Assembly (NCBI GenBank): GCA_028683385.1
Contig: JAQUIJ010000002.1
Location: 248,001 to 312,000, forward strand
Direction of reading: 5' to 3'
DNA: 64,000 nucleotides
DNA from: Prolixibacteraceae bacterium
GTDB taxonomy: Bacteria; Bacteroidota; Bacteroidia; Bacteroidales; Prolixibacteraceae
Within the stretch, counting starts at the first letter, position 1; each line of letters begins with the position of its first letter. The notes beneath the pieces were generated by a model. That model did no database searches. It was given only the letters and a program-made list of their open reading frames with translations, and was not told the DNA's origin. Positions 5,363 to 37,639 of the stretch are shown one piece after another. The position numbers and the translations under genes are program-made.

Positions 5363-5370
5363 TAACTTTG
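5363..5370 (+). promoter_or_regulatory. Bacteroidota-type -7 box upstream of the small membrane protein/kinase pair
   Basis: TAACTTTG fits the Bacteroidota -7 consensus TAnnTTTG exactly and lies 27 nt before the start codon at 5398. No clear -33 TTTG element is seen at the expected spacing. Confidence 0.5.
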
Positions 5371-5397
5371 GTATTCATTAAATAGAGCAAATAAATT

Positions 5398-5649: not shown

Positions 5650-5650
5650 A

Positions 5651-9086: not shown

Positions 9087-9107
9087 TGGATTTGATTTTT
9101 ATTAGCA

Positions 9108-9725: not shown

Positions 9726-9746
9726 AATCGATTGGTTTAATAGGGT

Positions 9747-10379: not shown

Positions 10380-10392
10380 TGCTATCGGATTT

Positions 10393-11097: not shown

Positions 11098-11108
11098 GTT
11101 TTTCCTTT

Positions 11109-12272: not shown

Positions 12273-12298
12273 TGATATAGTATAACTTAAATTTCTTG

Positions 12299-13654
12299 TT
12301 AATTACCCAGTTCTTTAATCATTACCGTTATTCCATCACGCAGAATCCGCTGAACTTCGATTTTTGAAGTACAAACATATTCGCATAGCGCAAGGTCTTC
12401 TTCAATAACTTCATAAATGCCCAATTGCTCCATTTTGTCAATGTCGTTGGCAATAATGGCTTTCATCAGAAATACAGGAAGAATGTCCATCGGGAGAACT
12501 TTTTCGTATTGTCCGGTAACTACATATGCCCGTTCTTCTCCGTTCAGGTTCGAGTCGGCTTTGTAAACCTTTTTAGGGGTCAACCACGAAAAGTACGATC
12601 GCGAAATACTGAATTTATTTAATCGAGGCATTGCCCAACCTAAAAATTCAAAGTAATCACCTTCAGGAATGACAGTTATTTGCTGGTCGTAAAATCCAAG
12701 ATAATCATCAGTTTCAGTTCTTTTGCCAGTCAGTACATTGCCCGAAATATACCGTTCCTTGACTTCCTGCCTGGTGGCCTTTTTCAATAATTCCGAAAGG
12801 CATATTCCATGAACGACTTTAATGTATTTTGGAGCAGTAACTTCGGAACCTGTAAGTGCAATGATTTTCGAGAAATCGACCTTCCCAGTTTCAAACAACC
12901 GACCGATATACAGAACTTCCTGCGGATTAATGGTCCAAATTAGATCGCCCTTGTTAATCGGACAAACATGATGGATTTGAATGCCTACATTTCCTGCAGG
13001 ATGCGGACCGGAGAACTGGTTGATCACAATGTTTTTGATGCCCGAAAAGAAACCGTTGGCTTGATCAGGACGAATCCCGACTTGAATTTTACCATCGGTT
13101 AGCTTGGAGAGTGCATTAATCCCGGTTTGGAAAGCTGAAGTTTGGCCCTCAAGAATGAATTCGTAATCAGGGGCAAGTGGAGCTGAATCGAATCCTGAGA
13201 TGAAAATATGAAGCGGAGTGCTTTCTGGTCTGGCAACAGTTCCATATGGACGCTGCTTCAAAAAGGCCCACATCCCGCTAGTTTTTAATTGTTCTTTGAT
13301 TTCCTCTCGTGATAGTTTCAGCGGATCGGTCTTTACAAACTCAACACAATCGTTTTTCCCATCTGCTTTGACGACAACTTCAAGTACTTTTCTTCGTTCG
13401 CCTCTGTTGATTGCTAAAACTTCGCCACTTACCGGAGAAGTATATAAAATTTCCGGATTGGATTTGTCAAAAAATAAAGGCTCGCCAGCTTTTACTTGCT
13501 GTCCGGCCTTTACCAGAATTTTTGGCATGAGTCCGGGGAAGTCTGTTGGCTTAATTGCAACCTTGACTGCTGCGATATGAGTCCCCAAGACTTTTTCGGC
13601 ATCCCCTTTCAGACGAATATTTAATCCACGCTTTAAATTGATAACCTTTGACAT
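12299..13654 (-). CDS. nqrA: Na+-translocating NADH:quinone reductase subunit A
   Basis: A 451-residue cytoplasmic subunit implicated in quinone binding. The N-terminal barrel-sandwich part (RGLNIRLKGDAEK; VKAGQQVKAGEPLFFDK) and the GPHPAGNVGIQIHHV block near the middle are typical of NqrA and distinguish it from RnfC, since no ferredoxin cysteines are present. It is the first gene of the operon. The upstream 187 bp are shared with the divergent T9SS plug gene and contain an inverted repeat at 13755-13773. Confidence 0.96.
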   Translation of the reverse strand: MSKVINLKRGLNIRLKGDAEKVLGTHIAAVKVAIKPTDFPGLMPKILVKAGQQVKAGEPLFFDKSNPEILYTSPVSGEVLAINRGERRKVLEVVVKADGKNDCVEFVKTDPLKLSREEIKEQLKTSGMWAFLKQRPYGTVARPESTPLHIFISGFDSAPLAPDYEFILEGQTSAFQTGINALSKLTDGKIQVGIRPDQANGFFSGIKNIVINQFSGPHPAGNVGIQIHHVCPINKGDLIWTINPQEVLYIGRLFETGKVDFSKIIALTGSEVTAPKYIKVVHGICLSELLKKATRQEVKERYISGNVLTGKRTETDDYLGFYDQQITVIPEGDYFEFLGWAMPRLNKFSISRSYFSWLTPKKVYKADSNLNGEERAYVVTGQYEKVLPMDILPVFLMKAIIANDIDKMEQLGIYEVIEEDLALCEYVCTSKIEVQRILRDGITVMIKELGN

Positions 13655-21047: not shown

Positions 21048-21532
21048 TGGTTCAGGAATGAGAGGTATGGAAACATATTTTGGTTCGGGACTATTTGAAT
21101 TCCCCGGATTCCAATTTTATCCGCAGCATCCATATCCGATTTGCTGTCGCCAACAAAGTATGAATCCGTCTTGCTGATTTTATGTTTGGAAATGAGTCTT
21201 TCAATCATCAGCGAATCCGGTTTCCGGCACAGACATTTTTCAATTTCAGGATGATGTGGGCAAAATGCAGCTTCTGTAATTTCAATATGATTGGCCTTAA
21301 ATGTCTGAATCAGTTCTGTATGAAGTTTCAGAATGTCGTCTTTTGTATATAATCCCCGTGAAATTCCTCCTTGGTTACTGACAACGAATAGCAAAAATCC
21401 TTTCTGCAAAAGTATCTTCAGATTGTCGATGACACCATCAATAAGCAAGAGCTGATCTGATTTCCAGATGTAGTAATGCTTGCTGTTGTCGATCAGTACA
21501 CCGTCTCGATCCAGAAAGATTGCTTTGTTCAT
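21044..21532 (-). CDS. HAD-IIIA phosphatase, GmhB/HisB-N type
   Basis: A 162-residue phosphatase. The nucleophile motif is FLDRDGVLID (D8, D10), motif II is VVSNQGG (about 49-55), and motif III/IV is VGDSKSDMDAA (about 137-147). The zinc-binding loop CPHHPEIEKCLCRKP (about 99-113) is typical of D-glycero-D-manno-heptose-1,7-bisphosphate 7-phosphatase and its relatives. A role in heptose supply for LPS is a reasonable inference, not proven. It overlaps both neighbours by 4 nt, so it is translationally coupled. Confidence 0.85.
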   Translation of the reverse strand: MNKAIFLDRDGVLIDNSKHYYIWKSDQLLLIDGVIDNLKILLQKGFLLFVVSNQGGISRGLYTKDDILKLHTELIQTFKANHIEITEAAFCPHHPEIEKCLCRKPDSLMIERLISKHKISKTDSYFVGDSKSDMDAADKIGIRGIQIVPNQNMFPYLSFLNQ

Positions 21533-22140
21533 TGTACCAACCTGAATAATTTATCCAGAAAACTTTCGAATAATTGAGGATTGAGCAAGATTGGGAAAAT
21601 AAACCCAAACAAAGCGCCCAGAAAGTGGGCATCATGAGCCACATTGTCTTTTTGTTTTGTACTCATCTGGTACGAATAAACCAGGTAGAGTCCGGCAAAC
21701 ACAATTCCCGGGATGGGCAGAATTCCAAAGAAATAAATCATGTTCCAGGGATCGAAGAAAATTGCCGCGAAAAGTATGGCTGAAACTGCTCCGGAAGCTC
21801 CTACTGAGTTGTAAAAGTAGTTGTTGCGGTGTTTGATTAGCGCGTAAATGTTTGATGCCAGAATTCCTCCAAAGTAAAGAAGTGCATAATCCAGAATGGC
21901 ATTATTTCCGAAATTATATTTGAAATAGGCTTCAATAGCTCGACCAAACGAGAACAGCACAATCATGTTCACGAACAAATGTTCCCAGTTTGCATGAATA
22001 AAGGCATGAGTTATCAGTCGGTGATATTCTTTTTTGTGGACAATTTTACTGGCATTAAACTGCAACTGATCCATCAGTTTAGGCGATTTGAAAGCAGCGT
22101 ATGAAACAGCTACGGTGATGACAATCAGAATTATAGTCAT
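21529..22140 (-). CDS. Rhomboid family intramembrane serine protease
   Basis: A 203-residue six-helix membrane protease. The L1 loop region HANWEHLFVNM (about 49-59), the catalytic serine in GASGA (about 117-121), and the catalytic histidine in HDAHFLGALFGF (about 168-179) are all present, so it should be active. Substrates are unknown. It lies 11 nt after holA and overlaps the HAD phosphatase by 4 nt. Confidence 0.93.
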   Translation of the reverse strand: MTIILIVITVAVSYAAFKSPKLMDQLQFNASKIVHKKEYHRLITHAFIHANWEHLFVNMIVLFSFGRAIEAYFKYNFGNNAILDYALLYFGGILASNIYALIKHRNNYFYNSVGASGAVSAILFAAIFFDPWNMIYFFGILPIPGIVFAGLYLVYSYQMSTKQKDNVAHDAHFLGALFGFIFPILLNPQLFESFLDKLFRLVQ

Positions 22141-22151
22141 TTGCGAATGGT

Positions 22152-23150
22152 TTAATGTAAAATGCGGTATATCATTTCTCGTTGAAGGTCGGCTGACGAT
22201 GCCGAAATATTGCCAAATCCTTTCGATTTCATATCGTACTCACGCAGAATACTTACAATTTCGACCAATTTTTTGATGTTGTAGTTTTTTGCTGCTGCCA
22301 CATAAGTTTTTACGAAAAACGGATGCACACCAAGCACTGAAGCTACGTTGTTTTGCGATTTATCTTCCAGAAAATGATAATTCAGTATTTTTGAAAAATA
22401 GGAAAACAGCGATGAAATCACCACCGGAACCGGATTGGATGACGGATTAGCCCCAAAATAGTTGATGATCCGGTTTGCTTTCAACAGATCGCGATCGCCC
22501 AGTGCATTTTGAAGTTCGTACACATTAAATTCTTTGCTGATTCCGATATTTTTCTCAATGTGATCGGGCGTGATTTGAGTACCAACTGGTAATGAAATAA
22601 TCAGTTTATCCAGTTCATTGGCCACTTTACCCAGATCGGCACCCAGAAATTCCGAGATCATTGCTGCAGCCTGAGGCGAGATGGTATATTGCTGACTTTT
22701 CAGATACGACGAAATCCAGGTAGGCAGTTGATTATCGTATATTTTTTTAGACTCGAACAATACTCCCTTCTGATCCAACAGTTTCGGGAATGTTTTTCGT
22801 TTGTCTAGTGTTTTGTATTTGTAGTTAATAACCAGAATCGTCGAATTTAGCGGATTCCTGGCATAGGTTTCCAATTCCTCAATCTTCTTGATATTTTGGG
22901 CTTCGCGAACAATAATCACTTGATAATTAGCCATCATCGGAAACCGGCGGGCATTGGCAATGATCGTATGAGGCTCGGTGTCTTTTCCGTAAAGCACCGT
23001 TTGATTAAACCCTTTTTCAGCTTCAGTCAACACATTGTCGGCGATGTAATCGCTGATTTTGTCAATGAAATACGTTTCTTCTCCCATTAAAAAGTAAATG
23101 GGGTGGTATATTTTTTTTTGAAGGTTGCTGATTATTTCTTCGAAAGTCAT
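22152..23150 (-). CDS. holA: DNA polymerase III subunit delta
   Basis: A 332-residue clamp-loader subunit that opens the beta clamp. The N-terminal region YFLMGEETYFIDKISDYI (about 18-35) and VIIVREAQNIKK (about 77-88) are typical HolA. The C-terminal helical collar domain spans about 215-332. Length fits the family (about 330-345). It sits 14 nt after the AMP nucleosidase gene and 11 nt before the rhomboid gene in a minus-strand operon. Confidence 0.92.
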   Translation of the reverse strand: MTFEEIISNLQKKIYHPIYFLMGEETYFIDKISDYIADNVLTEAEKGFNQTVLYGKDTEPHTIIANARRFPMMANYQVIIVREAQNIKKIEELETYARNPLNSTILVINYKYKTLDKRKTFPKLLDQKGVLFESKKIYDNQLPTWISSYLKSQQYTISPQAAAMISEFLGADLGKVANELDKLIISLPVGTQITPDHIEKNIGISKEFNVYELQNALGDRDLLKANRIINYFGANPSSNPVPVVISSLFSYFSKILNYHFLEDKSQNNVASVLGVHPFFVKTYVAAAKNYNIKKLVEIVSILREYDMKSKGFGNISASSADLQREMIYRILH

Positions 23151-24535: not shown

Positions 24536-26179
24536 CTAAGCTTGCTTCTGAAGTATCATTCCCATACGGGCTAATGCCAGATCGAAAGTTGGTACGATAT
24601 TGTTTGGGCCAATTAATGCCGGAACGCCTCCTTTTTCGAGTTCTTCAAATACCTCAGGCTGAACTCCCGAGAGAATAATTTGTATCCGTCTTGATTTCAG
24701 ATCCTTGATGGTTGCTTTCAGGTTTCGGAGGCCGGTACCATCGATGAACGGAACATGCCGCATACGGATAATGACCACTTTCGAAGTGTGACTAATGTCC
24801 TTTAATGTTTCTTCGTACCGGCGAGCGGCTGCAAAAAAGAATGGCCCGCTGATCTCAAATATTTCAACTCCTTTCGGGATGTCGGCATAATTTTCCAAAG
24901 TATCCGATTCGGTTTCCAGCGGAATCACTTTACTCAGGTTCGACATGCGCTGCATAAACAATAATGACGATAGTACCACACCAACTTCAATGGCAACAGT
25001 TAAATCGACAAATACAGTTAAAATAAACGTGCTGAGAAGTATAAAAATGTCGTATTTGTGACCTTTCAGAATCGAGTAGAACGACTTCATTTCGCTCATG
25101 TTGTAGGAAACAACTATTAGAATTCCGGCCAGACACGGCATTGGGATCAATAGCGCCCATTTCCCGAAAACCAACATGATTAATAAGAGCGTTACTGCAT
25201 GAATAATACCTGCGATTGGTGTGCGTCCGTTATTTTTGACATTTGTCGCAGTTCGTGCAATGGCTCCGGTGGCAGGAATTCCGCCAAAGAATGGTGTGAC
25301 AATATTGGCAACTCCCTGTGCAATCAACTCGGTATTCGAGCGATGATTACTACCGATCATCCCATCGGCAACAACAGCCGAGAGCAGCGACTCAATAGCC
25401 CCGAGCAAGGCAATGGTCAATGCAGGTTGCATATATTGTCCCAACTGATCGAAATGGATTGATGGGATTGTAATCGCGAATTTATTGGGAATAGAGCCAA
25501 ATACACTCTCGATGGTATTCACCTGAAGACCAAATGCGGCAACGATCGCCGTCATCACAATAATGGCGATGAACGATCCTGGAACTTTAGGGATTAGTCG
25601 TCCGGAAAATACAGTTATGATAATGGTTCCAATCGTAATTAATACAGCCGAAAGATTGAAATTCTGCATCTGGTGAAAATAAATTTCCCATTTGGCAATG
25701 AATTCAACCGGAAGTTTATCGATAGGCAGTCCCATCGCGTCCTTAATCTGTGTGGAGAAAATGACCAAAGCAATACCGCTCGTGAAACCAACAATCAACG
25801 GATGTGGAAAGAATTTTAGGATTGATCCCAATCGCAGTAATCCAAAAGTGATTAGCATTATTCCGGCCATGATGGTTGAGATGATCAGCCCATCGAACCC
25901 GTATTTTTGGAGAATTCCGTAAACAATAACAATGAAAGCGCCAGTCGGCCCGCCAATCTGAACGCGGCTTCCGCCCAGTAATGAGATGATAAACCCGGCA
26001 ACCACTGCAGTAATGATGCCCTTTTCAGGAGAAACACCGGAGGCCACAGCAAAAGCAATCGCTAATGGCAACGCTACAATTCCGACGATAATTCCGGCAA
26101 AAATGTCGTTGGTTACATTTTTGGTTAGCAGGCCTTTCTTAAACAGGCTCCATGTTTTAGGAAGAAAAATTGGCTCCAT
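24536..26179 (-). CDS. SulP family anion transporter with STAS domain
   Basis: A 547-residue inner-membrane permease (SLC26/SulP). It has about 10-14 helices from residue 20 to 415, with the family signature region GGPTGAFIVIVYG (about 76-88) and GAIARTATNVKNNGRTPIAG (about 300-319). A C-terminal STAS domain (about 435-545) contains MRHVPFIDGTGL, where a Ser/Thr-Gly element follows the usual aspartate. SulP members carry sulfate, bicarbonate or C4-dicarboxylates; the sequence alone does not decide. It lies 222 bp after the Crp/Fnr gene on the same strand, close to the hydrogenase-related complex. Confidence 0.92.
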   Translation of the reverse strand: MEPIFLPKTWSLFKKGLLTKNVTNDIFAGIIVGIVALPLAIAFAVASGVSPEKGIITAVVAGFIISLLGGSRVQIGGPTGAFIVIVYGILQKYGFDGLIISTIMAGIMLITFGLLRLGSILKFFPHPLIVGFTSGIALVIFSTQIKDAMGLPIDKLPVEFIAKWEIYFHQMQNFNLSAVLITIGTIIITVFSGRLIPKVPGSFIAIIVMTAIVAAFGLQVNTIESVFGSIPNKFAITIPSIHFDQLGQYMQPALTIALLGAIESLLSAVVADGMIGSNHRSNTELIAQGVANIVTPFFGGIPATGAIARTATNVKNNGRTPIAGIIHAVTLLLIMLVFGKWALLIPMPCLAGILIVVSYNMSEMKSFYSILKGHKYDIFILLSTFILTVFVDLTVAIEVGVVLSSLLFMQRMSNLSKVIPLETESDTLENYADIPKGVEIFEISGPFFFAAARRYEETLKDISHTSKVVIIRMRHVPFIDGTGLRNLKATIKDLKSRRIQIILSGVQPEVFEELEKGGVPALIGPNNIVPTFDLALARMGMILQKQA

Positions 26180-26401: not shown

Positions 26402-27106
26402 TCAATAGAATTTCGACATTTCGATCAGTGCTTTTGTTTTTAATGCGCTGATTCTCTTTCCATTGATCCCGATAATTTCTTCCTTTTTGAATTCCTGAAG
26501 CAGTCGAACCAGGGTTTCTGTTGCCGTTCCAACCATATTGGCCAAATCTTCGCGCGACAATACGATCTCAACCAAATCCGATTTGTCTTTTCTTCTGAAT
26601 TTTTCTGAAAGGATCAAAAGAGTCAGCGCCAATCGTTCCCGAACGGACATGTGGGCAAACACCATTACACTGTTTACCATTACGCCAAACTCATGGCTTA
26701 AGCTGGATAAAAGGCAGCTCATCAGGGCGTTCGATTCATTTGTGGCTTTTAGAAATACTTCTTTCGGTAAAAAACCCAAACTCGAAGTTTCCACTGCTGC
26801 AATTGAATCAGGATAAGGTTCGTTACACAATAAAGCCGAATACCCAAGTAATTCACCTTCAGAACAAAGCGATAAAATGTGTTCTTTTCCGGCATGATCG
26901 GTCTTGTATTTTTTCACCAACCCTTCTTTCAGGTAATAGATTCCGGCTGAATATGAACCTTCCAGAAATATGGGCTGACCTTTCTTGTAGGTTCGGTCAA
27001 TCATTTGGCTTTCCAGAAATACTCTTAAATCGGCTGGAATATTTTTAAAAATTGAATCGCTTTTCGAAGTGAATTTTTCGAGGTGAATTAAATCGTTTGT
27101 TTCCAT
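26402..27106 (-). CDS. Crp/Fnr family transcriptional regulator
   Basis: A 234-residue regulator: a cyclic-nucleotide-binding-like beta-roll (about 20-115, with PIFLEGSYSAGIYYLKEGLV), a dimer helix (about 120-150) and a winged helix-turn-helix. The recognition helix reads GTATETLVRLLQEF (193-206). E197 and R201 occupy the positions that read the TTGA/TGTGA half-site in Crp/Fnr proteins. There is no N-terminal cysteine cluster, so it is unlikely to hold an FNR-type [4Fe-4S] cluster; only C81, C94 and C131 are present. It is divergent from the hydrogenase-related operon with a 146-bp shared region that holds an FNR-type box. Confidence 0.9.
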   Translation of the reverse strand: METNDLIHLEKFTSKSDSIFKNIPADLRVFLESQMIDRTYKKGQPIFLEGSYSAGIYYLKEGLVKKYKTDHAGKEHILSLCSEGELLGYSALLCNEPYPDSIAAVETSSLGFLPKEVFLKATNESNALMSCLLSSLSHEFGVMVNSVMVFAHMSVRERLALTLLILSEKFRRKDKSDLVEIVLSREDLANMVGTATETLVRLLQEFKKEEIIGINGKRISALKTKALIEMSKFY

Positions 27107-27252: not shown

Positions 27253-29259
27253 ATGATGGAGATGGCAGGACTGTTGAATTTATCGTGGTGCGCAACAATT
27301 GTTGCTATTATTACCTTGTGTTTTGTTTCCACCAGGTTCAAATCATATCTTGCTGCATCGGCAGTAATTGTTAATGCAGTACTAACAAGTTTACTGGCCA
27401 TTGGTGCACTGAATGGCGAAATTAAAGAGCTTATTTTTCAGGGAAATATTTTTTGGGGCGATATTCTTGTCCGCATCGACGGGCTGTCGGCCTGGTTCAT
27501 TTTAATTGTCAATCTTACTTCTGTAACCGGCGTCATTTATGGCATTGGATATTTAAAACCTTACGTCAATTCCGCTCAAAAGCTGGCCTTTCACTGGATT
27601 TTGTTTGTCATTTTTCACCTGTCGATGGTTTGGGTTTGTATGTTGCAACATTCGCTTGCCTTCTTGGTTGCCTGGGAGGTGATGTCATTGTCTTCGATGC
27701 TCCTGGTTATTTTCGACCACGACAAACCCAAAACGATAAAAGCCGGAATCAATTATCTGGTTCAGATGCACATCAGCGTTACGTTTTTAACCATTGGATT
27801 TATCTGGGTCTATTTTCAAACGGGGTCATTCAGCTTCGATGCTTTTCAAACTTATTTTGGTGCAAACAGCAACGTCTGGTTGTTCCTGATCTTTTTCGTC
27901 GGATTCGGCATTAAGGCCGGATTTATTCCTTTACATAGCTGGCTGCCCCATGCACATCCTGCCGCACCATCGCACGTTTCGGGTGTCATGTCCGGAGTGA
28001 TTGTGAAACTAGGCATCTACGGAATTTTCAGGATTATTTCCTTCCTGAAAGCTGATTTCTTATTGTTGGGCGAAATTGTGATCACGATTTCCGTTTTGAC
28101 CGGAGTATATGGAATCTTAAATGCGGCTGTTCATCGCGATTTCAAACGGATGCTTGCATATTGCACCATCGAAAATATCGGGATCATTGGTATTGGCATT
28201 GGCCTCGGATTGATGGGAATAGGCAACAATTCCGCGGTTTTGTATTACCTCGGCTTTGGCGGAGCGCTGTTGCACGTTCTGAACCACTCGCTGTTTAAAT
28301 CCTTGCTGTTCTATTCGGCAGGTTCGGTTTACCAGCAAACACATACCCGCGACATGAATAAACTGGGTGGTTTAATCAGGCAAATGCCAAAAACGGCTGT
28401 TCTTTTCCTGATTGGCGCCATTGCCATTGGCGGATTACCACCTTTCAACGGGTTTGTTTCCGAGTTTATTCTTTATAGCGGACTTTTGGAAGGATTGAAA
28501 TTCAGTAATATAAGCCAAATAAGTTTATTGGTGGTTACGCTTGGTGGATTGAGTATTATTGGCGGTATTTCGGTTTTAACGTTCACCAAAACGTTCGGGA
28601 CAATTTTCCTCGGAACGGAACGAAAAAAGCTAACCCATCAACCGGTTGAAGTTTCTTCTATGATGTTGATTCCTCAATATCTGATTGTTTTAGTCATGCT
28701 GAGTGTTGCATTTCTTCCGCAATTTTACCTGAATCTCATTTCCAAACTTCTGGATACATTTGGTAAAACTCAGTTTGTTGCCGGGTCATTTGGTTTGTCT
28801 GCTTATTCTGAAAGTATCACAAATATTAATCTCTATTCAATCCTGTTTGTCGCGATTGTTGCTGCAAGCTGGGGCGTTCGTGCGCTTGTCGTAAAAGGCA
28901 AATCGATGAAAATTGAGCCAACCTGGGGATGTGCCTATGTTGCGCCAAACAGCCGGATGCAATACACAGGCAAATCGTTTTCAAAATCGCTGGGCAAAAT
29001 TTTTAGTTTTCTTTTGGTTGAAGAAAAAAAATACAAAGAATTGGAAGCCGGAGAGATATTTCCGGAGAGCCGAAAATATGTATCACATTATCAGGATTTT
29101 TTCGAATACCGGTTTATAAATTACATCACCCACCATCTGGTTTATGCGGCAAATTATTTTAAATTTATTCAGAATGGACGGGTGCAATCGTATGTTTGGT
29201 ATGGGATTATATTTATGGTAGCTATATTTACGTTGACAGTTTTAAATGTATTAAAATGA
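27253..29259 (+). CDS. hyfB: HyfB-like antiporter-type membrane subunit, first copy
   Basis: A 668-residue NuoL/MrpA-family proton-channel subunit of a hydrogenase-4-like complex, with about 14-16 helices. Key ion-path residues are kept: E142 in AWEVMSLSS, K221 in GIKAGFIPLHSWLP, K252 in GVIVKLGIYG, and the lysine in LNHSLFKSLLF (about 353). The C-terminal EPTWGCAYVAPNSRMQYTGK motif is specific to HyfB/HycC-type subunits. It starts the operon, and its stop codon overlaps the start of the second HyfB-like gene (ATGA). An upstream FNR-type box suggests control by the divergent regulator. Confidence 0.92.
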   Translation: MMEMAGLLNLSWCATIVAIITLCFVSTRFKSYLAASAVIVNAVLTSLLAIGALNGEIKELIFQGNIFWGDILVRIDGLSAWFILIVNLTSVTGVIYGIGYLKPYVNSAQKLAFHWILFVIFHLSMVWVCMLQHSLAFLVAWEVMSLSSMLLVIFDHDKPKTIKAGINYLVQMHISVTFLTIGFIWVYFQTGSFSFDAFQTYFGANSNVWLFLIFFVGFGIKAGFIPLHSWLPHAHPAAPSHVSGVMSGVIVKLGIYGIFRIISFLKADFLLLGEIVITISVLTGVYGILNAAVHRDFKRMLAYCTIENIGIIGIGIGLGLMGIGNNSAVLYYLGFGGALLHVLNHSLFKSLLFYSAGSVYQQTHTRDMNKLGGLIRQMPKTAVLFLIGAIAIGGLPPFNGFVSEFILYSGLLEGLKFSNISQISLLVVTLGGLSIIGGISVLTFTKTFGTIFLGTERKKLTHQPVEVSSMMLIPQYLIVLVMLSVAFLPQFYLNLISKLLDTFGKTQFVAGSFGLSAYSESITNINLYSILFVAIVAASWGVRALVVKGKSMKIEPTWGCAYVAPNSRMQYTGKSFSKSLGKIFSFLLVEEKKYKELEAGEIFPESRKYVSHYQDFFEYRFINYITHHLVYAANYFKFIQNGRVQSYVWYGIIFMVAIFTLTVLNVLK

Positions 29260-31283
29260 GCCTGATAAATGCGTTTGTAGCAGTGCCGGTTTTGGCGATA
29301 CTCCTCATCCCTTTTCTGAAAGTAAAAGGGAAAGGGATTGTATTGTTTGCCTCCATTGTCGTGAATGCTTTGATTTCTGGTTTTCTTGGGCTGCAAACTT
29401 TGGGCGGGCAATTTTTGGAATTTTCATTTCCCGGTAGTTTAGTAACTGGTCCGGTGAATCTTCGCATAGACGCCCTTTCCGGATGGTTTATCCTGATTAT
29501 CAATTTCATTTTTATAACCGGCAGTTTCTATGGACTTTTCTACATGAAAGCCTACCAGAAACAGAAGAATAATCTTACGCTGCATAGCATTGTTTTCATT
29601 TTACTGCATACTGCCTTGATCAGTCTTTGTGCGGTACAAAATAGCTTGGTTTTTCTGGTAACCTGGGAAATCATGGCGCTTTCGGCGTTTATCGCTGTCA
29701 TTTTCGAACATGGCAAGATGGCTACACTTAGAGCCGGAATGAATTACCTGATCCATTCGCATGTCTCGATTTTATTCCTGATGTTCGGTTTTATATGGGT
29801 AGCGCTTAAAACCGGCAGTTACGATTTCAACTCAATAACAACTTATACTTCTCAAAATTCAGGAGCTACCGGGCTTGTGTTGTTTCTTTGTTTTTTTATT
29901 GGGTTTGGAATCAAGGCTGGATTTGTTCCTTTTCATACCTGGCTACCGTATGCGCATCCGGCAGCGCCTGCTCATGTTTCCGGAGTTATGTCAGGCGTAA
30001 TGATTAAAATCGGAATTTTTGGAATCTTCCGGATGATCACCTTGATTAAAACTGATTATTATACCGTAGGCCTTGTGATCATTACTTTTTCAGTTATTTC
30101 AGGTTTGTATGGGGTGATGCTTGCCATTATGCAGCACAACCTTAAAAAGTTACTGGCTTATCACAGCATCGAAAATATTGGAATTATCGGAATGGGGATT
30201 GGCATTGGTTGCATCGGGTTAGGTACGGGAAATTATTTGCTTGCTTCACTTGGATTTGCTGGTGGATTGCTCCACACCTTAAATCACTCGCTCTTCAAAT
30301 CGCTTTTGTTTTTTACTGCCGGAAATGTTTATCAGGCAACACATACAGTTCACATTGATCATTTGGGAGGACTGATTAAGAAAATGCCGCAAACGGCTTT
30401 GCTTTTTCTGATTGCTGCTATTGCTATTTCGGGAATTCCGCCATTCAATGGTTTTATCTCGGAGTTTATCATTTATAGCGGATTCTATTACTGGATGCAG
30501 GGTTCGCTGATTGGTCCGTTGATGACTATCATATTTTCAGTACTGGCCTTGGTGCTAATCGGTGGGTTGGCGTTGTTGTGCTTTACCAAAGCTTTCGGGA
30601 TTGTTTTCCTGGGCAATCCCCGTCAGAAATTCGACCACGAAGTGAAGGAAGTTTCCTTTTCCCAACTGTTACCGCTTTACCTGATCGCTTTTCTGATCGT
30701 GTTCATCGGCGTGTTTCCGCAAATCTTTATGAATGCGCTATCACAGCCGGTGCATCTTTTGGCTGGTCTTCCTACAATTTCAGATATGCCTTTCCCTGAA
30801 AAAACTACTGAACTTCTCCAACCGGTTACCTGGGGCATCTGGATGTTTATCCTGATCAGTCTGGCAGTTTTGGGGTTCAGGAAACTGGTTACACAAAACC
30901 GAAAAGCTTCAGTCGAACCGACCTGGGGTTGCGGATATATCGCGCCAACTGCAAAACTGCAATACACTGCCGGATCGTTTGTCAGGCCCTACAGCAAGCT
31001 GTTTCGTCCATTTTTGCTTTCGCACAAAACCCAAAAAGAGGTTGAGGGTATTTTTCCTTCAGGAGGTTCGTATGAAACACATAGTTACGACCGGATTGAA
31101 AAGTATTTGGTTGACAGCCTAATAGCAGTTTATAAATCGTTGCTGGGAAGGTTTCTCTTCCTTCAGAATGGAAAACTGCAATTCTATATTTTATATGGAA
31201 TCATTTTCATCGTTTCGGTGATTTGTATTCCGTTGTTTTACGACCAGATTGTGTTATTCATTGAATTTATAAAGCAGATATAA
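29256..31283 (+). CDS. hyfB: HyfB-like antiporter-type membrane subunit, second copy
   Basis: A 675-residue paralogue of the preceding subunit, with the same architecture. E138 in TWEIMALSA, the lysine in GIKAGFVPFHTWLP, the lysine in SGVMIKIGIFG and the lysine in LNHSLFKSLLFF are retained. The C-terminal EPTWGCGYIAPTAKLQYTAG is present too. The start at 29256 is chosen because of the 4-nt ATGA overlap with the upstream stop; a start at 29196 would add 20 residues read inside the previous gene. The tandem pair probably arose by duplication and gives the complex two HyfB-type channels. Confidence 0.92.
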   Translation: MSLINAFVAVPVLAILLIPFLKVKGKGIVLFASIVVNALISGFLGLQTLGGQFLEFSFPGSLVTGPVNLRIDALSGWFILIINFIFITGSFYGLFYMKAYQKQKNNLTLHSIVFILLHTALISLCAVQNSLVFLVTWEIMALSAFIAVIFEHGKMATLRAGMNYLIHSHVSILFLMFGFIWVALKTGSYDFNSITTYTSQNSGATGLVLFLCFFIGFGIKAGFVPFHTWLPYAHPAAPAHVSGVMSGVMIKIGIFGIFRMITLIKTDYYTVGLVIITFSVISGLYGVMLAIMQHNLKKLLAYHSIENIGIIGMGIGIGCIGLGTGNYLLASLGFAGGLLHTLNHSLFKSLLFFTAGNVYQATHTVHIDHLGGLIKKMPQTALLFLIAAIAISGIPPFNGFISEFIIYSGFYYWMQGSLIGPLMTIIFSVLALVLIGGLALLCFTKAFGIVFLGNPRQKFDHEVKEVSFSQLLPLYLIAFLIVFIGVFPQIFMNALSQPVHLLAGLPTISDMPFPEKTTELLQPVTWGIWMFILISLAVLGFRKLVTQNRKASVEPTWGCGYIAPTAKLQYTAGSFVRPYSKLFRPFLLSHKTQKEVEGIFPSGGSYETHSYDRIEKYLVDSLIAVYKSLLGRFLFLQNGKLQFYILYGIIFIVSVICIPLFYDQIVLFIEFIKQI

Positions 31284-31285
31284 CT

Positions 31286-32191
31286 ATGCTGAGTTTAATT
31301 CTCATTCTTATAGCAGCAGCCTTTTTTACGGGGGTAATCGTCCGTGTAAAAAGTATGGCGTCAGGCCGCAAAGGGCCTGGTATTTTACAGCCGCTGTTTG
31401 ATGTTTTCAGGCTCTTTAAGAAAGGAGTTGTGTACAGCGAAACAACCAGTTTTGTATTTCAGATCGCGCCAACGATCTATTTTTCGTCGGTGGTAATGGC
31501 TATGCTGGTAGTTCCGTTCGGGCAATCGAAAGGTATTTTAAGTTTCGATGGCGATTTTATCTTTTTCGCATACATACTGGCATTAGGCAAGTTTTTCAGT
31601 ATTATTTCGGCCATGGATACGGGTAGTAGTTTCGAAGGAATGGGAGCCAGCCGTGAAGCGCTTTATTCGATGTTTGCCGAACCAGCTTTTTTTATCCTGA
31701 TGGGTTCGCTGGCGTTGCTTACCGGACATACCAATTTTCAGGAAATGTTTTCTGCTTTGCATATTGGCTCGTACATCAGCTATGCGCTGGCAATACTTGG
31801 CACTTTCGTTTTGATGATGATAGCGATGGTCGAGAATAGCCGAATGCCAATTGACGACCCGAAAACGCACCTCGAATTGACCATGGTTCATGAAGTGATG
31901 ATTTTAGATAACAGCGGGTTTGACCTTGGTTTGATCCTGACTGCCGGATACCTGAAATTCGCTATTTACGGGGCTTTGGTCGTCAATCTGTTTATCGGAG
32001 TGTTTCCACTGCAATATTCAATCCCGATGTTTTTCGTAATTCAATTCGTACTGGCTTCCGGTGTTGGGTTCATCGAATCGTTTATGGCACGATTCAGGAT
32101 GAGTCACAATGCCCAGTTTATTTTCGTGTTGACGTCGGTTAGCCTCCTTATTTTCTTTGGCGCTTTACTGATTTTAGGAAAGTTTGTTTAA
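31286..32191 (+). CDS. hyfC: HyfC/NuoH-like membrane subunit
   Basis: A 301-residue subunit homologous to HyfC/HycD and complex I NuoH, the membrane protein that links the peripheral arm to the antiporter modules. It contains GRKGPGILQPLFDVFRLFKK (about 27-46), FEGMGASREALYSMFAEP (about 115-132) and the acidic loop ENSRMPIDDPKTHLELTMVH (about 183-202), which in complex I lies on the coupling path. Eight hydrophobic helices are evident. It follows the second HyfB gene by 2 nt. Confidence 0.93.
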   Translation: MLSLILILIAAAFFTGVIVRVKSMASGRKGPGILQPLFDVFRLFKKGVVYSETTSFVFQIAPTIYFSSVVMAMLVVPFGQSKGILSFDGDFIFFAYILALGKFFSIISAMDTGSSFEGMGASREALYSMFAEPAFFILMGSLALLTGHTNFQEMFSALHIGSYISYALAILGTFVLMMIAMVENSRMPIDDPKTHLELTMVHEVMILDNSGFDLGLILTAGYLKFAIYGALVVNLFIGVFPLQYSIPMFFVIQFVLASGVGFIESFMARFRMSHNAQFIFVLTSVSLLIFFGALLILGKFV

Positions 32192-32209
32192 ACCGTAAAA
32201 TCTATACCA

Positions 32210-32842
32210 ATGATAGATGTACTGCTTATTACCTTCATCATCACCCTGTTCTACATGGCAATTGCCAACAGGATGCTGACTTACTTGAAAGTTCTGGCTT
32301 TTCAGGGTGTATTGCTTTTTGTGGTTGTCTTCCTTCAATTGAAGGAAATCAACACGGTAAACCTGGCTTTGATCTTACTTGAAACCATTGTTTTTAAGTC
32401 GGTTGCAGTTCCGCTGTTTATGGCTTACGTGCTGAAGCGAAACAACATTACCCGCGAATCGGAGCCTTTTTTACCCAATTTTGTGTCGTTAATCATTACC
32501 ACATTTATTGTGGTTGTTACCATATTGTTGGCCAATCAGGTGAAAGACACCAATTTGGATAAGATATTCTTTGTTGTTGCGTTGTCATCACTATTTACAG
32601 GTTTGTATTTTATTGCCACCCGCCGCAAAATTATCACCCATGTTATTGGTTACCTGATTATTGAAAACGGAGTTTTTGTATTGTCGCTGGCTGTTGGAAA
32701 CGAAATGCCTATGTTGGTGAACCTCGGTATTATGCTCGATATTTTTGCCAGTGTGCTCATTTTGGGCATTTTCCTGAATAAAATTGGCGACGTATTTAAA
32801 GATGTTGACGTGGATCAGCTAAGTAATTTGAAGGACTATTGA
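32210..32842 (+). CDS. hyfE: HyfE-like membrane subunit
   Basis: A 210-residue membrane protein with six or seven hydrophobic segments and a NuoK-like part: LIIENGVFVLSLAVGNEMPML near 148-168 carries the glutamate equivalent to the conserved NuoK helix residue. Length is as in E. coli HyfE (about 216). It lies 18 nt after hyfC. It is followed by 122 bp with no gene before the next subunit. Confidence 0.87.
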   Translation: MIDVLLITFIITLFYMAIANRMLTYLKVLAFQGVLLFVVVFLQLKEINTVNLALILLETIVFKSVAVPLFMAYVLKRNNITRESEPFLPNFVSLIITTFIVVVTILLANQVKDTNLDKIFFVVALSSLFTGLYFIATRRKIITHVIGYLIIENGVFVLSLAVGNEMPMLVNLGIMLDIFASVLILGIFLNKIGDVFKDVDVDQLSNLKDY

Positions 32843-32964
32843 TAATTAGAAAAAAGAAAAGGGAAAGAGGAAAAGGACGCCTTTGCTGTCCCATTTATGG
32901 AACGGTCATGATTTTCGGAGGAATGGTGAAAATGATAAATGTGTTGATTTAAAATGATTAGAAT

Positions 32965-34392
32965 ATGATAGGAATATATCTGATAGGAGCTTTGTCAATA
33001 GCGCTTGCCTTATTTCTGAAAAAGAACAAGACGCTAACATTCGTATTACTGGGATTATTTCTAATCCTTCAGGGAGCATTAACGTTTCATGCATATACCA
33101 ATTTTCATTCTACCGAATGGAGCTATTTTACGTACGATTCATTGGCTGTACTGTTGTTGTTCGCCTTGGGAATAATCACCATTCCGGCGATAATTCACAG
33201 CCATATTTATCTCGAAGACCAACCTGCCCCACAGAGTTCAAGATCGATTTATTATGCTTCAATTGTATTACTGATATCTGCCATCAGTGCAGGCTACCTA
33301 TCGAACCACATCGCTGTTACCTGGATTTTTACCGAAATTACCACCTTGAGCGCATCGGCACTGATTTATCATCACCGAAATAAGCTGGCGCTGGAAGGTA
33401 CCTGGAAATATGTGTTTATCTGTGCAATCAGTATCACCTTTGTGTTCATTGGCATTTTGTTTTTAAGTATGTCGTTTTCAAATGCCGGATCTGACGATTT
33501 GTCGTTTAAAAATCTGTTGGCCAATAGTTCTCATCTCAATCCTTTCTGGCTGAGACTGGCTTTTCTCTTTATTTTCACCGGGTTTACCGTTAAACTTGGG
33601 CTGGTACCCATGTTTACCGCTGGTGTCGATGCAAAGGATAAAGCTCCGGCTCCTGCTGGCGCATTGCTTTCAAGCGTATTGATGAATTTGGGATTTGTTG
33701 GTGTTTTCCGTTTTTACATTGTGGTTGCAAATACTCCGCTTCATCATTGGGCGAATCTGGTTATAGGCATTGCAGCATTCTTATCGGTGTTTGTTGCCAC
33801 CGTGTACATGATTAAAGTGAAAAACATCAAGCGAATGATGGCCTATTCGAGTATTGAACACATGGGATTGGTTATGCTTGGTGTTGCCGCAGGAGGAATT
33901 GGCTATTATGCCGCGATTCTACACATCATACTTCATGCCTTTGTCAAGTCGAGCTTGTTTTTCCAGTTTACCCAGTTGTACCGGGTGTTTCAGAGTAAAA
34001 GCATTTACCATGTGGGTAATTATTTCAAATACAATACTGCTGGTGCGATGGTTCTTTTGTTAGGTTTTATCAGTGCAACCGCCATGCCGCCTTCAGGGTT
34101 GTTTGTAAGCGAATTTCTAATTTTTCGTTCGATGTTCGAGGCGCATCAGATCATTCTTTTGATAGCCGTTTTGATTTTGCTCACCATGATTATCTATGCT
34201 TTTGGGAAGAACATCATGAAGATATTGTTTATTCCGGCTGTTGGATTTGACGATTCGCATGTTCCGGTGATCAGCCCGTGGGAATCCTCGAGTCAATTTA
34301 TTTTGCTGGCGTTGGTCGTTTATTTAGGCTTGAATCCTTCGGCTGAATTTGTGCAGTTGATCAAAGAAAGTGTCATGTTGTTACCAAATTAA
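32965..34392 (+). CDS. hyfF: HyfF/NuoN-like antiporter-type membrane subunit
   Basis: A 475-residue third antiporter-type subunit, closest in kind to HyfF/NuoN/MrpD. Ion-path residues are seen in WIFTEITTLSAS (Glu, about 118), FTVKLGLVPMFTAG (Lys, about 210) and ILHAFVKSSLFF (Lys, about 328). The sequence DAKDKAPAPAGALLSS takes the place of the usual HPxAP stretch. It begins 122 bp after hyfE and is followed after 6 nt by the HyfG-like gene, so it remains in the same operon. Confidence 0.9.
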   Translation: MIGIYLIGALSIALALFLKKNKTLTFVLLGLFLILQGALTFHAYTNFHSTEWSYFTYDSLAVLLLFALGIITIPAIIHSHIYLEDQPAPQSSRSIYYASIVLLISAISAGYLSNHIAVTWIFTEITTLSASALIYHHRNKLALEGTWKYVFICAISITFVFIGILFLSMSFSNAGSDDLSFKNLLANSSHLNPFWLRLAFLFIFTGFTVKLGLVPMFTAGVDAKDKAPAPAGALLSSVLMNLGFVGVFRFYIVVANTPLHHWANLVIGIAAFLSVFVATVYMIKVKNIKRMMAYSSIEHMGLVMLGVAAGGIGYYAAILHIILHAFVKSSLFFQFTQLYRVFQSKSIYHVGNYFKYNTAGAMVLLLGFISATAMPPSGLFVSEFLIFRSMFEAHQIILLIAVLILLTMIIYAFGKNIMKILFIPAVGFDDSHVPVISPWESSSQFILLALVVYLGLNPSAEFVQLIKESVMLLPN

Positions 34393-34398
34393 CCGACA

Positions 34399-35898
34399 AT
34401 GAATTACACAACGATAATTAACAATCAGACGATTCCGGTTTCAGACATTCCTGAAATTAGTTATAACGAATTTATCGACCTGAATACCGGTTTTTTAACT
34501 GATTCTCCGGAAAGGCATTGCGTCAATTATTTTGGTTCTCGGGTTGGAAATCAGGTTCGGTTGATTTGCTGTATTGCCGACGACAACACGCATCAGATCT
34601 ACGTTTCATCGTGTTTGATAAAATCAGGCGATTCGCTTGATTCATTCACTGCCCGGAATTTCAATTTTGAAAAATTTGAACGCGAGATACATGAGAATTT
34701 TGGTGTGGGCTACAACGATCATCCGTGGTTGAAGCCAGTCCGGTATGCCAAAAACCGTTTCGATCAATCCCAAACTATTGCCAATTATCCTTTCTTTTCC
34801 ATCGAAAGCGACGAATTGCACGAAGTTGGTGTGGGTCCAATTCATGCCGGAATTATCGAGCCCGGTCATTTCCGGTTTATCTGTAACGGTGAGCAAATTC
34901 TCCATCTCGAAATCCAGTTGGGTTACCAGCATCGCGGAATTGAGCAACAGTTCCTGGCGAAGAAAAAGTTGCTTCAACGCACAACGGTAGCCGAATCGAT
35001 TGCCGGTGACACCGTAGTGGGGCATACCACTGCTTTCTCGCATGTCTGGGAAAGCCTTTGCGGGTTTCAACCTTCTCGCGACATTGAATATGCCCGGACA
35101 CTTGCTCTCGAATTGGAGCGAATGGCAGTGCATACAGGCGATTTGAGCGCTGTTTGTACCGACATTGCTTATCAGTTGGGCAGTTCGGTGTTTGGTCGTT
35201 TACGTACGCCAATCATCAATTTCATGCAGGAGTGGGGCGGTAACCGTTTGTCGAAAGGATTAATCAGGCCGGGAAGGAACCAGTTCCCGTTTACTCCTGA
35301 ATTGGCCAATCGCTTGGCTGAAATACTCGATATTTATGAGCCGGATTTCCTGGAAATGAATGAGCAATTGTTCCAGTTGCCCAGCGCCCTTTCGCGGTTT
35401 GAGCGTACCGGCGTGGTTTCGTACGACGATGTTTTATCGATTGGAACGGTTGGAATGGCTGCCCGCATGAGTGGACTGTGCCGCGACACCCGTCAATCGC
35501 ATCCGTTTGGTCTTTATCCTGAATTAAATCACGAGCCCATCATCAAACATCATGGCGATGTGTATTCACGGGTTCAAATCCGTAAGGCAGAAGTCAAACA
35601 ATCCATGCAATACATCCGGAATCTGATTCAACATGTTCCTGAAATTTCTGGAAATGAATCGGTATTCCAGAGTCCGAAACCCAATTCGTTTACGCTTTCA
35701 TTGGTCGAGGGTTGGCGTGGCGAAATTTGCCATTGCGCCATCACTGACGAACTAGGAGAATTAGCTTATTATAAAGTGAAAGACCCGTCGTTCCACAACT
35801 GGCTCGCATTGGCGTTGGCTGTGAGGAATAATGAGATTTCAGATTTCCCGATCTGCAACAAGAGTTTCAACCTCTCGTATTCTGGTCACGATTTATAA
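34399..35898 (+). CDS. hyfG: HyfG-like large subunit lacking all [NiFe] cysteines
   Basis: A 499-residue peripheral subunit: an N-terminal NuoC-like domain (about 1-130) and a C-terminal NuoD/hydrogenase large-subunit domain. The core is recognisable from LGYQHRGIEQ (174-183), with H178 conserved, and from ALELERMAVHTGD. Group 4 hydrogenases have two C-x2-C pairs that hold the Ni-Fe centre. The first (canonical VCGIC) aligns with I201-A-G-D-T205, and the second (DPCxxC) with D462-P-S-F-H-N467, so all four cysteines are gone. It cannot be a hydrogenase. This loss is the hallmark of Ehr-type complexes. Confidence 0.88.
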   Translation: MNYTTIINNQTIPVSDIPEISYNEFIDLNTGFLTDSPERHCVNYFGSRVGNQVRLICCIADDNTHQIYVSSCLIKSGDSLDSFTARNFNFEKFEREIHENFGVGYNDHPWLKPVRYAKNRFDQSQTIANYPFFSIESDELHEVGVGPIHAGIIEPGHFRFICNGEQILHLEIQLGYQHRGIEQQFLAKKKLLQRTTVAESIAGDTVVGHTTAFSHVWESLCGFQPSRDIEYARTLALELERMAVHTGDLSAVCTDIAYQLGSSVFGRLRTPIINFMQEWGGNRLSKGLIRPGRNQFPFTPELANRLAEILDIYEPDFLEMNEQLFQLPSALSRFERTGVVSYDDVLSIGTVGMAARMSGLCRDTRQSHPFGLYPELNHEPIIKHHGDVYSRVQIRKAEVKQSMQYIRNLIQHVPEISGNESVFQSPKPNSFTLSLVEGWRGEICHCAITDELGELAYYKVKDPSFHNWLALALAVRNNEISDFPICNKSFNLSYSGHDL

Positions 35899-35907
35899 GG
35901 AAGAAGC

Positions 35908-36110
35908 CCCCTTCCCGTTCCCCCGAATGGGGAAAGCCTTGGGGGTTCTGGTTCAAGGATATAGCAGAACAAATCATTAGAGCGATATCCTTTGCCGTTG
36001 GCTTTAGCCAACGGATGAAAGTTGAAAAAAGAAATCCGTCCGCGAGAGAATGTTGCTCAGAGAATAATCTCTTTATCGGACGCCTGCCAGCCGCAGGCAG
36101 GGAATGCCAG
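35908..36110. repeat. Cluster of REP-like palindromes between hyfG and the hyfI-like gene
   Basis: The 280-bp gap holds no gene but several palindromes. They are a nested C-rich/G-rich hairpin (35918-35934, TTCCCC/GGGGAA), the perfect CCGTTGGCT-TT-AGCCAACGG (35995-36014), an outer CGTCCG/CGGACG pair (36037-36082) and GCCTGC-5 nt-GCAGGC (36082-36098). There is no T-run after any of them. They look like intergenic repetitive elements that have landed inside the operon. They may alter the amount of the last subunit. Confidence 0.7.
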
Positions 36111-36178
36111 TAAGGCTGAACATTGAGAAAGGCCTTTTAAATTTAGTTTCATTATAGCGAATTTATAAATGACACACC

Positions 36179-36934
36179 ATGTTCGATAATGTAAAAATAG
36201 TCTATCATCAAGGCAAACAATTTATTCCGGATACAGCCAATGCCAAGGTTCCCGGAATTTTCAGGGGCCGTCCTGTGATTAGTTCCGAAAAGGTGAACGA
36301 AGCGGAACTGGTTGATTGTTGTCCGGTTGATGCGATTGCAACCAATCCGGTGAGCATCGACCTCGGAAAATGCACCTTTTGTGGCGAGTGTGCCAAAAGG
36401 TTTCCGAATAAGATACGGTTCACAACCGACTATAAAATATCGACCAACGACCGCAATCGGTTGATCGTGAAAGAAGGCGATGAAGGACCGATTGAAATTG
36501 ATCCCCAAATGGTACGGAATGAAATTCGCCGGATTTTTGGCCGCTCGTTAAAGCTGCGACAAGTAAGCGCCGGTGGCGACAACAGTTGCGAAATGGAGCT
36601 CAATGCCGCCAACAATGTACAGTTCGACATCAGCCGTTACGGGATTGACTTTGTCGCTTCGCCGCGCCATGCCGACGGAATTGTGATTACCGGCCCCATT
36701 ACCGAAAACATGGCTGAACCTTTGCAGATCTGTTACGATGCAATTCCCGAACCCAAATTGATTGTGCTGGTTGGCACTGATGCCATTAGCGGTGGAATTC
36801 ATGCAGGCAACCCTGCCCTTGATCGGAGTTTTCTCGATAAATATCCCATCGATCTCTACATTCCGGGCAACCCGGCCCATCCGCTGACCATTGTTAATGG
36901 ATTGTTGGATTTAACACGGAAACGAAAAATCTGA
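36179..36934 (+). CDS. hyfI: Ferredoxin-HyfI fusion small subunit with most cluster ligands lost
   Basis: A 251-residue protein that joins a HyfH/HycF-like ferredoxin part (about 25-90) to a HyfI/NuoB-like part (about 105-251). In the ferredoxin part, C48 (CCPVDAI) and C65, C68, C71 (CTFCGEC) can bind one [4Fe-4S] cluster. The four ligands of the other cluster are K38, E41, L44 and F75. In the NuoB-like part the proximal-cluster positions are D134, C137, D201 and N231, so three of four ligands are missing. The residual motifs GTDAISGG and YIPGNPAHP make the alignment clear. Electron transfer through it to a partner is therefore unlikely in the normal way. Confidence 0.85.
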   Translation: MFDNVKIVYHQGKQFIPDTANAKVPGIFRGRPVISSEKVNEAELVDCCPVDAIATNPVSIDLGKCTFCGECAKRFPNKIRFTTDYKISTNDRNRLIVKEGDEGPIEIDPQMVRNEIRRIFGRSLKLRQVSAGGDNSCEMELNAANNVQFDISRYGIDFVASPRHADGIVITGPITENMAEPLQICYDAIPEPKLIVLVGTDAISGGIHAGNPALDRSFLDKYPIDLYIPGNPAHPLTIVNGLLDLTRKRKI

Positions 36935-36952
36935 GAACCTATATTCATGTTA

Positions 36953-37143
36953 GAACGGTAGGCTCGAAACATATGGTTTTACAATTTTCAATTTCAATGC
37001 CCACGGATTAAAATCCGCGGCTACAAGATGAACCATCCCTCCTGGATTTACAGGTTAGAACCTTAGGTTCGCTTCATGTTGTAGGGATGGAATTTATTCC
37101 ATCCACATGGATCGCCCATACACACAATGAGAGCCGTAGGCTC
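36953..37143. repeat. Composite palindromic repeat, left of the transposase
   Basis: A string of short palindromes: CCACGGATT-AA-AATCCGCGG (37001-37020), GAACC-TTA-GGTTC (37058-37070), GGATGGAAT-TT-ATTCCATCC (37085-37104) and GAGCC-GTA-GGCTC (37131-37143), with a degenerate GAACGGTAGGCTC at 36953. The block 37001-37143 recurs in the same orientation right of the transposase at 37699-37840. Confidence 0.85.
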
Positions 37144-37177
37144 AGCATATATAATGTTTATAGTTTTTGTTTTTATA

Positions 37178-37639
37178 TTAAATCAAATCTTCAAAAATAT
37201 ACCGCTCATCATAAGGAACTTCAAACTTTTCCAGGAACTCCAGATATTCCTCTCTAAACGTTTGTTGTTCATGGTGCTCCTCTTGATTGGCTATATATTT
37301 GTATACCTGATCAATCTGTGAATGTCCATATGAAAATACGCCATACCCTTCCTGCCATTCGAACCTGCTTTTGGTCAGTTGATGATCATTGATGTATTTT
37401 GATGATTTGGCTTTTACCGTTTTCATTAATTCAGCAATAGAAACCACCGGTTTTAATCCAACAAAACAATGGATATGATCTTCAGTCCCATTTGCGATAA
37501 GGGTTTTGCAGCCGGTTTCATTAATCAGATTGCCAATAACACCAAGCAATGTTGGTCGCCAATCTTTGTCAATGATAGCATATCTGTATTTTACTGCGAA
37601 AACACATTGAATGTAAACTTGATGATAGGTATTTGCCAT
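37178..37639 (-). CDS. IS200/IS605-family Y1 transposase (TnpA / REP-associated type)
   Basis: A 153-residue HUH single-strand transposase. The His-hydrophobic-His metal motif is HIH in EDHIHCFVGLKP (about 54-65). The catalytic tyrosine is expected in the helix VYKYIANQEEHH (about 112-123). Length matches IS200 TnpA (about 150), and no tnpB is present. The gene has intact motifs and no frameshift. Palindromic repeats flank it on both sides, which suggests that it acts on, or was mobilised with, those repeats. Confidence 0.92.
   Translation of the reverse strand: MANTYHQVYIQCVFAVKYRYAIIDKDWRPTLLGVIGNLINETGCKTLIANGTEDHIHCFVGLKPVVSIAELMKTVKAKSSKYINDHQLTKSRFEWQEGYGVFSYGHSQIDQVYKYIANQEEHHEQQTFREEYLEFLEKFEVPYDERYIFEDLI

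Follow-up and report, generated by a model that had tools for sequence, protein, structure and literature searches.

It has long been asked how complex I couples the transfer of electrons to the pumping of ions, and the locus described here raises the question of what a complex I-like machine can do when its ion-pumping arm is intact and its path for electrons appears to be cut. The locus is a seven-gene operon, hyfB-hyfB-hyfC-hyfE-hyfF-hyfG-hyfI, at positions 27253-36934 of the window (the whole stretch of 64,000 nucleotides that was analysed). It belongs to a Bacteroidota genome that is nearly complete (5.9 Mb), and the closest relatives with a name are Prolixibacteraceae. All seven reading frames are open, and the order of the genes is unchanged in nearly all relative loci with enough sequence. 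Judged by its sequence, the operon encodes an Ehr (energy-converting-hydrogenase-related) complex.

The seven genes all lie on the forward strand. The first two encode antiporter-like subunits of the HyfB type: HyfB1 (27253..29259, 668 aa) matches Proton_antipo_M with an E-value of 4e-54 and is best described by the HyfB model, while HyfB2 (29256..31283, 675 aa), which also matches Proton_antipo_M, most likely starts at the ATG at 29256 rather than the TTG at 29196. They are followed by hyfC, encoding a NuoH-like subunit (31286..32191, 301 aa; NADHdh, E 4e-36), hyfE, encoding a NuoK-containing subunit (32210..32842, 210 aa; NCBIfam HyfE model, E 3.5e-20; Oxidored_q2-like), and hyfF, encoding a third antiporter-like subunit (32965..34392, 475 aa; Proton_antipo_M). 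The last two genes encode the large subunit HyfG, which is NuoCD-like and without NiFe ligands (34399..35898, 499 aa; Complex1_49kDa, E 5e-31), and HyfI (36179..36934, 251 aa; Oxidored_q6, E 1.5e-22), in which a ferredoxin domain is fused to a NuoB-like small subunit; the Fer4 match of the ferredoxin part is weak in a profile search. The predicted fold of HyfG matches HycE (7z0s_E, TM 0.78) and that of HyfI matches MbhJ (6cfw_J), with pLDDT below 50 in the HyfI model at loop 133-149, which holds the first two former proximal ligand positions.

The sequence-only reading of this DNA had proposed that the antiporter-type subunits keep their key Glu and Lys residues, and alignment to NuoM bears this out. 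NuoM residues E144, K234, K265 and E407 correspond to E142, K221, K252 and E404 in HyfB1, to E138, K220, K251 and E403 in HyfB2, and to E124, K210, N241 and E383 in HyfF. All three subunits retain the NuoM-type Glu of TM5, Lys of TM7 and Glu of TM12; the Lys of TM8 is present in both HyfB proteins and is replaced in HyfF by Asn241, with Asn likewise found in E. coli HyfF. The pumping Glu and Lys residues are at least 97% invariant in about 60 orthologues, and the same holds for the acidic loop residues E183..D213 of HyfC.

The active site of HyfG is a different matter. The four cysteines that bind NiFe in HycE align with A202, T205, S493 and G496, so that, as had first been read, none of the four remains. 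That reading had also noted the absence of a hyp gene nearby, and the absence extends further: no HypD was found in the whole genome, which is listed as 100% complete, and the control genomes were positive. Two CxxC NiFe motifs and Hyp maturation are criteria for a group 4 [NiFe] hydrogenase, and the window complex meets neither. Complex I-like quinone chemistry was considered and rejected; where NuoD of complex I has its catalytic quinone-site Tyr, HyfG has Gly. From these alignments, neither NiFe nor quinone-Tyr chemistry looks possible in HyfG.

The small subunit tells us where the route for electrons would fail. In the alignment, HyfI has D134, C137, D201 and N231 opposite the cysteines that hold the proximal cluster in HycG. 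Among 95 homologues, the first position (codon 36578..36580) is D in 82 and C in 13, the third (36779..36781) is D in 80, E in two and C in 13, and the fourth (36869..36871) is N in 81, Y in one and C in 13; C137 (36587..36589), the remaining cysteine, is A, G or Y in some homologues. The only complete [4Fe-4S] ligand set lies in the ferredoxin domain and consists of C48 (36320..36322) with C65, C68 and C71 (36371..36391), all of them Cys in 95 of 95, while ligands C1-C3 and C8 of the other ferredoxin cluster are gone. This agrees with the earlier claim that one complete site is left and that the proximal cluster and one ferredoxin cluster are missing. The retained set aligns with E. coli NuoI C70/C99/C102/C105 and the lost set with C60/C63/C66/C109; residues named near N6a and N6b in E. 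coli complex I flank these same two NuoI sets (PMC8357420). By alignment, then, the retained cluster would be the outer, N6a-type one, and the lost clusters would be the inner two, N6b-type and N2-type (proximal). The genome also has two separate complex I-type operons (L165 and L166), and its two other NuoB proteins have intact ligand cysteines.

In complex I, electrons pass from N6a to N6b, then to N2 and on to the catalytic site. The two lost clusters are consecutive and nearest to the catalytic site, and it is on this ground that we regard the electron wire as cut. In the absence of two clusters, the known route should not carry electrons from the outer cluster to HyfG, although this is an inference made without a structure of the complex; steps in the FHL relay are shorter than 14 Å (PMC9474812). 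Ehr complexes are generally suspected to couple redox chemistry with charge translocation (PMC6349859), and the machine could still be driven in this way if electrons entered through the N6a-type cluster and passed to another acceptor, or to a non-canonical cofactor close to where the proximal cluster used to be. The ligands of the outer cluster do not vary, and D134, D201 and N231 are almost invariant, as would be expected of a new site. However, C137 varies and other lineages have different residues at these positions (T/D/E/S, N/D/D/A and D/C/D/D), which argues that there is no common set of cofactor ligands; moreover, apart from a Crp/Fnr regulator in a minority of cases, no constant partner or electron-donor gene is conserved upstream or downstream of the operon in relative loci. 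We hold a redox-driven complex to be possible but improbable.

Could the missing cysteines be errors, or signs of decay? The genome collection yielded relatives at 307 places, and 80 of these were retained. Of 95 aligned HyfI homologues, 82 have lost the proximal site, with exactly DCDN in 76, and D-x-D-N occurs in 28 of the 30 best matches in a 393-genome sample of Bacteroidales. Sequencing errors at the ligand codons, which would have undone the first reading, are excluded by this shared pattern. Between congeners, dN/dS is 0.007-0.085 across the seven genes, and the values for HyfG and HyfI (0.044-0.075) are no laxer than those of the pump subunits; all seven genes are under strong purifying selection. 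Conservation and dN/dS together reject both sequencing error and a pseudogene. A nonfunctional, decaying relic of a hydrogenase or Ehr complex would account for the many missing catalytic residues, but not for such constraint on each gene, for reading frames and gene order that are whole in tens of genomes, or for the conservation of the replacement residues, and can be regarded as already refuted.

How the cluster-less form arose can be read from its relatives. HyfI homologues of at least about 60% identity have the window ligand pattern, and those of 47-56% retain the proximal cysteines. The latter include 13 more distant Bacteroidota proteins, all with four proximal cysteines and ten with a full ferredoxin domain; in the other three (L029, L032 and L038), the N6b-type cluster alone is missing. 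Like the window complex, the Bacteroidota Ehr complexes L026-L038 and that of a Variovorax plasmid (L213, HyfI 52% identical) have a fused ferredoxin-HyfI, and those checked have no NiFe ligands; unlike it, they have the four proximal cysteines and mostly both ferredoxin clusters, with the Variovorax complex having all clusters. Homologues in related species that keep the NiFe and proximal-cluster cysteines had been named as grounds for refutation: proximal cysteines do occur at 47-56% identity, but the distant relatives that keep them have no NiFe ligands in those checked. Since proximal cysteines are found in these more distant NiFe-less relatives, the window form is derived from a redox-wired Ehr, and redox coupling is probably ancestral because many relatives keep the proximal cluster.

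Other branches show other combinations. In the plasmid-borne sets of Rhizobium, Azospirillum, Burkholderia, Paraburkholderia and Methylocalor, the ferredoxin domain is absent and the proximal site intact. Allomeiothermus silvanus has a window-type cluster loss. Mycobacterium branderi (L221) has the same double loss, and its Burkholderia/Caballeronia relatives retain every cluster, so that here the wire was cut once within a type of operon that otherwise retains it. L161, a single MAG contig, has D/C/D/D at the proximal ligands and no ferredoxin domain. In a HyfG tree, computed with a mixture model from a protein that does not contain the proximal-cluster trait, loss of the proximal cluster needs a minimum of four changes (4-4 over bootstraps), which fall in the window clade, A. 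silvanus, M. branderi and L161. A single origin for all cluster-less forms was tried as an explanation and is rejected by AU tests (p-AU 7e-51), as is joining the window clade with Allomeiothermus (5e-6), L161 (6e-5) or M. branderi (8e-69). On the evidence of these trees, loss of the proximal cluster is parallel in the window clade and at least two or three other lineages. Both M. branderi and Allomeiothermus sit on long branches, the former on a very long one, so that where exactly they belong is less certain than that they are separate from the window clade. Window HyfG is nested among NiFe-less forms, with L026, which has all four proximal cysteines (CCCC), as the next branch (support 100/99; tree without published Ehr reference sequences).

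A second hyfI was met with in two cases. The cluster-less hyfI of A. silvanus (L216, NC_014213 pMESIL01) occurs twice, at 21491-22294 and 247135-248007, identical across 268 residues. Locus L190 (G457:C23), whose operon has a single hyfB, holds a second HyfI that is 61% identical and likewise of the DCDN type; the same genome has the usual derived operon, L189, with an additional hyfC-like gene upstream (8828-9736).

The residues that took the place of the proximal cysteines have something in common. In the four losing lineages the former ligands are DCDN (window), TDES, NDDA and DCDD (L161): each loss has at least two acidic residues at these positions, and the third position is acidic every time. 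Acidic residues occupy nine of the 16 former ligand positions against a background of 12% (P about 3e-5), and six of 12 when L161, known from one contig, is left out (P 0.0015), with the reservation that the statistic is post hoc and covers four events only. By contrast, the last ferredoxin ligand gave way to F, I, A or S. The net charge of a thiolate-ligated [4Fe-4S] cluster is negative. It follows, as a hypothesis, that a pair of carboxylates is a plausible mimic of that charge and could titrate with protons. In the window complex, D134 and D201, with N231, would take over the part played by the lost cluster's charge, and D134/D201 might switch by protonation in place of reduction. The broader proposal is that an electron switch was swapped for a proton switch independently in several phyla, with a carboxylate pair replacing the charge of the N2-type cluster and its protonation triggering the coupling loops and ion exchange; this is speculative, and we offer it with the odds against it.

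We therefore return to the function of the whole. The first reading had suggested an Ehr-like complex whose intact pump is coupled to a process that is not hydrogen chemistry, and the comparison of ligands and relatives supports it. Our preferred reading, to which we give a probability of roughly 0.55, is that of an Ehr complex that translocates H+ and/or Na+ without electron transfer and serves pH or ion homeostasis; the absence of electron transfer, the transport role and the carboxylate switch are all inferred. The antiporter arm and HyfC would exchange H+ and/or Na+ without redox input, in the manner of Mrp, and the peripheral HyfG-HyfI pair would act as a structural and regulatory cap. 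This rests on the conservation of the ion arm and of the HyfC coupling loop, on the cut wire, on the improbability of NiFe or quinone chemistry, and on the fact that the cut arose several times. Against it stand an invariant [4Fe-4S] set that a purely non-redox machine does not obviously need, the lack of transport data, the lack of any identified energy source or partner, and the likelihood, noted above, that redox coupling is ancestral.

That invariant cluster also allows a middle course, in which it senses redox state or oxygen and regulates an ion channel or antiporter but passes no electrons on. The N6a-type cluster is never lost among members with a ferredoxin domain, and a possible regulator of the operon, a Crp/Fnr-family gene (26402..27106, reverse strand; cNMP_binding and HTH_Crp_2), is divergent from it, as in some other loci: of about 46 derived-type loci for which upstream DNA is available, 12 have a related gene on that side, no more than a few kb from the operon. 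Yet the Rhizobium/Burkholderia branch and L161 do without the ferredoxin domain entirely, and an Fe-S cluster may persist merely for the fold of the domain, which leaves redox gating rather unlikely. At L193 (8245-9621), L195 (8164-9522) and L209 (Niastella vici, 4429-7619), hyfB and the Crp/Fnr gene are separated by genes judged by eye to be GcvH-like and methyltransferase-like, and by one for a small conserved protein (about 98 aa).

Beyond the regulator, the window contains a gene for a SulP-family transporter near the operon (24536-26179, reverse strand). SulP adjoins the operon in the window genus and in the CCCC forms L149, L152, L153, L155, L159 and L148; in the first five of these, it stands ahead of the operon (55-56% identical) together with an HTH-EIIA-type gene, and in L164 a SulP-STAS-EIIA fusion lies inside the operon, between hyfG and hyfI. 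At L148, kdpA/kdpB-like K+ uptake genes (identified by eye, 9040-12789) are divergent from the Ehr operon, with SulP downstream. Such proximity would suit a complex that, like NDH-1MS or DAB systems, takes up or hydrates inorganic carbon with the adjacent SulP. However, SulP gave no match in 34 of the 48 genomes that carry the derived complex, and no carbonic anhydrase or DabA was noticed adjoining the operon. SulP is rejected as an obligate partner, and the inorganic carbon role, already weak for the window clade, is very unlikely.

Some relatives on plasmids have surroundings of another kind. Fluoride riboswitches (Rfam) precede the Ehr-like operons of M. branderi (L221, 4618-10660) and of Burkholderia/Caballeronia (L222, 4906-12632; L226, 4860-12593; L223), near which lie genes of fluoride resistance, namely crcB or those for a CLC-type channel, enolase or pyrophosphatase. 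No fluoride or other riboswitch was found in the window, in seven other window-type loci or in seven CCCC-type loci. In a review, formate hydrogen lyase is among the commonest fluoride-riboswitch enzymes and is read as metabolic, Na+/H+ antiporters rank next after exporters, and pH/Na+/H+ homeostasis is a known response to fluoride (PMC11139923). An ion-homeostasis role fits the fluoride-riboswitch sets better than the metabolic reading, because those seen have no NiFe ligands, and the 'formate hydrogenlyase' of such lists may often be a NiFe-less Ehr-like complex. Although the M. branderi and Burkholderia/Caballeronia complexes are homologous to that of the window, they differ in their fluoride riboswitch and lie on a distant branch of the HyfG tree; the fluoride link bears on that branch and not on the window.

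The DNA around hyfI has features of its own. It is non-coding on either side (35899-36178 and 36935-37177), without internal repeats that could be found, and the spacing between hyfG and hyfI ranges among relatives from about 10 to more than 1000 bases. Just 3' of the operon is a small ORF (37178-37639, reverse strand), IS200-type transposase-like as judged by eye; in L203, a gene 44% identical to it stands immediately ahead of hyfI. In the congeners L143 (17942-19325), L142, L139, L172 and L170 (19116-19165), the 3' end of hyfI (50-98 bp, 81-96% identical) recurs downstream of the gene, and in the first four, the copies enclose a toxin-antitoxin pair that, judged by eye, is MNT-HEPN-like, as if the 3' end of hyfI were an insertion site.

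It remains to set the complex beside known systems. The Ehr complexes of Geobacter sulfurreducens (GSU0739-45) and comammox Nitrospira share the Hyf-type subunit set, which in G. sulfurreducens is encoded by seven genes, like that of the window operon (PMC7894505), and are without NiFe-binding CxxC motifs (PMC10284858); in the literature, Ehr complexes are NiFe-less and of unknown function (PMC10284858, PMC6349859, PMC7894505). The window complex satisfies the criteria of a Hyf/complex-I-like subunit set, absence of the four NiFe cysteines and a tree position among NiFe-less large subunits. It does not have the proximal [4Fe-4S] redox chain by which Ehr complexes are suspected to work (D/C/D/N at the ligands, N6b-type cluster lost), but that chain is a supposed function and not part of the published definition, and so membership by sequence stands. 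The window complex additionally lacks the N2-type proximal and N6b-type clusters, a difference from the Geobacter and Nitrospira complexes that is subject to the ligands of the latter not having been compared. Like the sequence-only reading, which knew of no described version without both clusters, our literature search found accounts of Ehr but none reporting loss of the proximal cluster; the founding description (Marreiros et al. 2013) was outside the search, and the novelty of the variant is probable, not proven. To that reading, the present analysis adds the independent losses in other phyla, the consecutive position of the lost clusters and the acidic replacements of the proximal ligands.

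Here nature supplies a conserved complex with intact pump and coupling elements and a cut electron path, whose close relatives are still wired; it offers a ready test of what the redox module adds, and of whether charge or protonation alone is enough for the peripheral arm to work. The case is also relevant to the function of Ehr complexes, which is unknown. Respiratory complex I differs from the window complex at the N2 ligands, which are replaced in the latter, and at the quinone Tyr of NuoD, where the latter has Gly. Formate hydrogenlyase and hydrogenase-4 of E. coli (Hyc and Hyf) have homologous subunits, with the fold match of HyfG noted above, but they possess a NiFe site and a full cluster chain, and Hyc works with formate dehydrogenase. 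Mrp cation/proton antiporters share with the window complex both the antiporter-like subunits and the proposed mode of work, whereas HyfC, HyfG and HyfI belong to the window complex, and its operon has no genes of the MrpE/F/G type.
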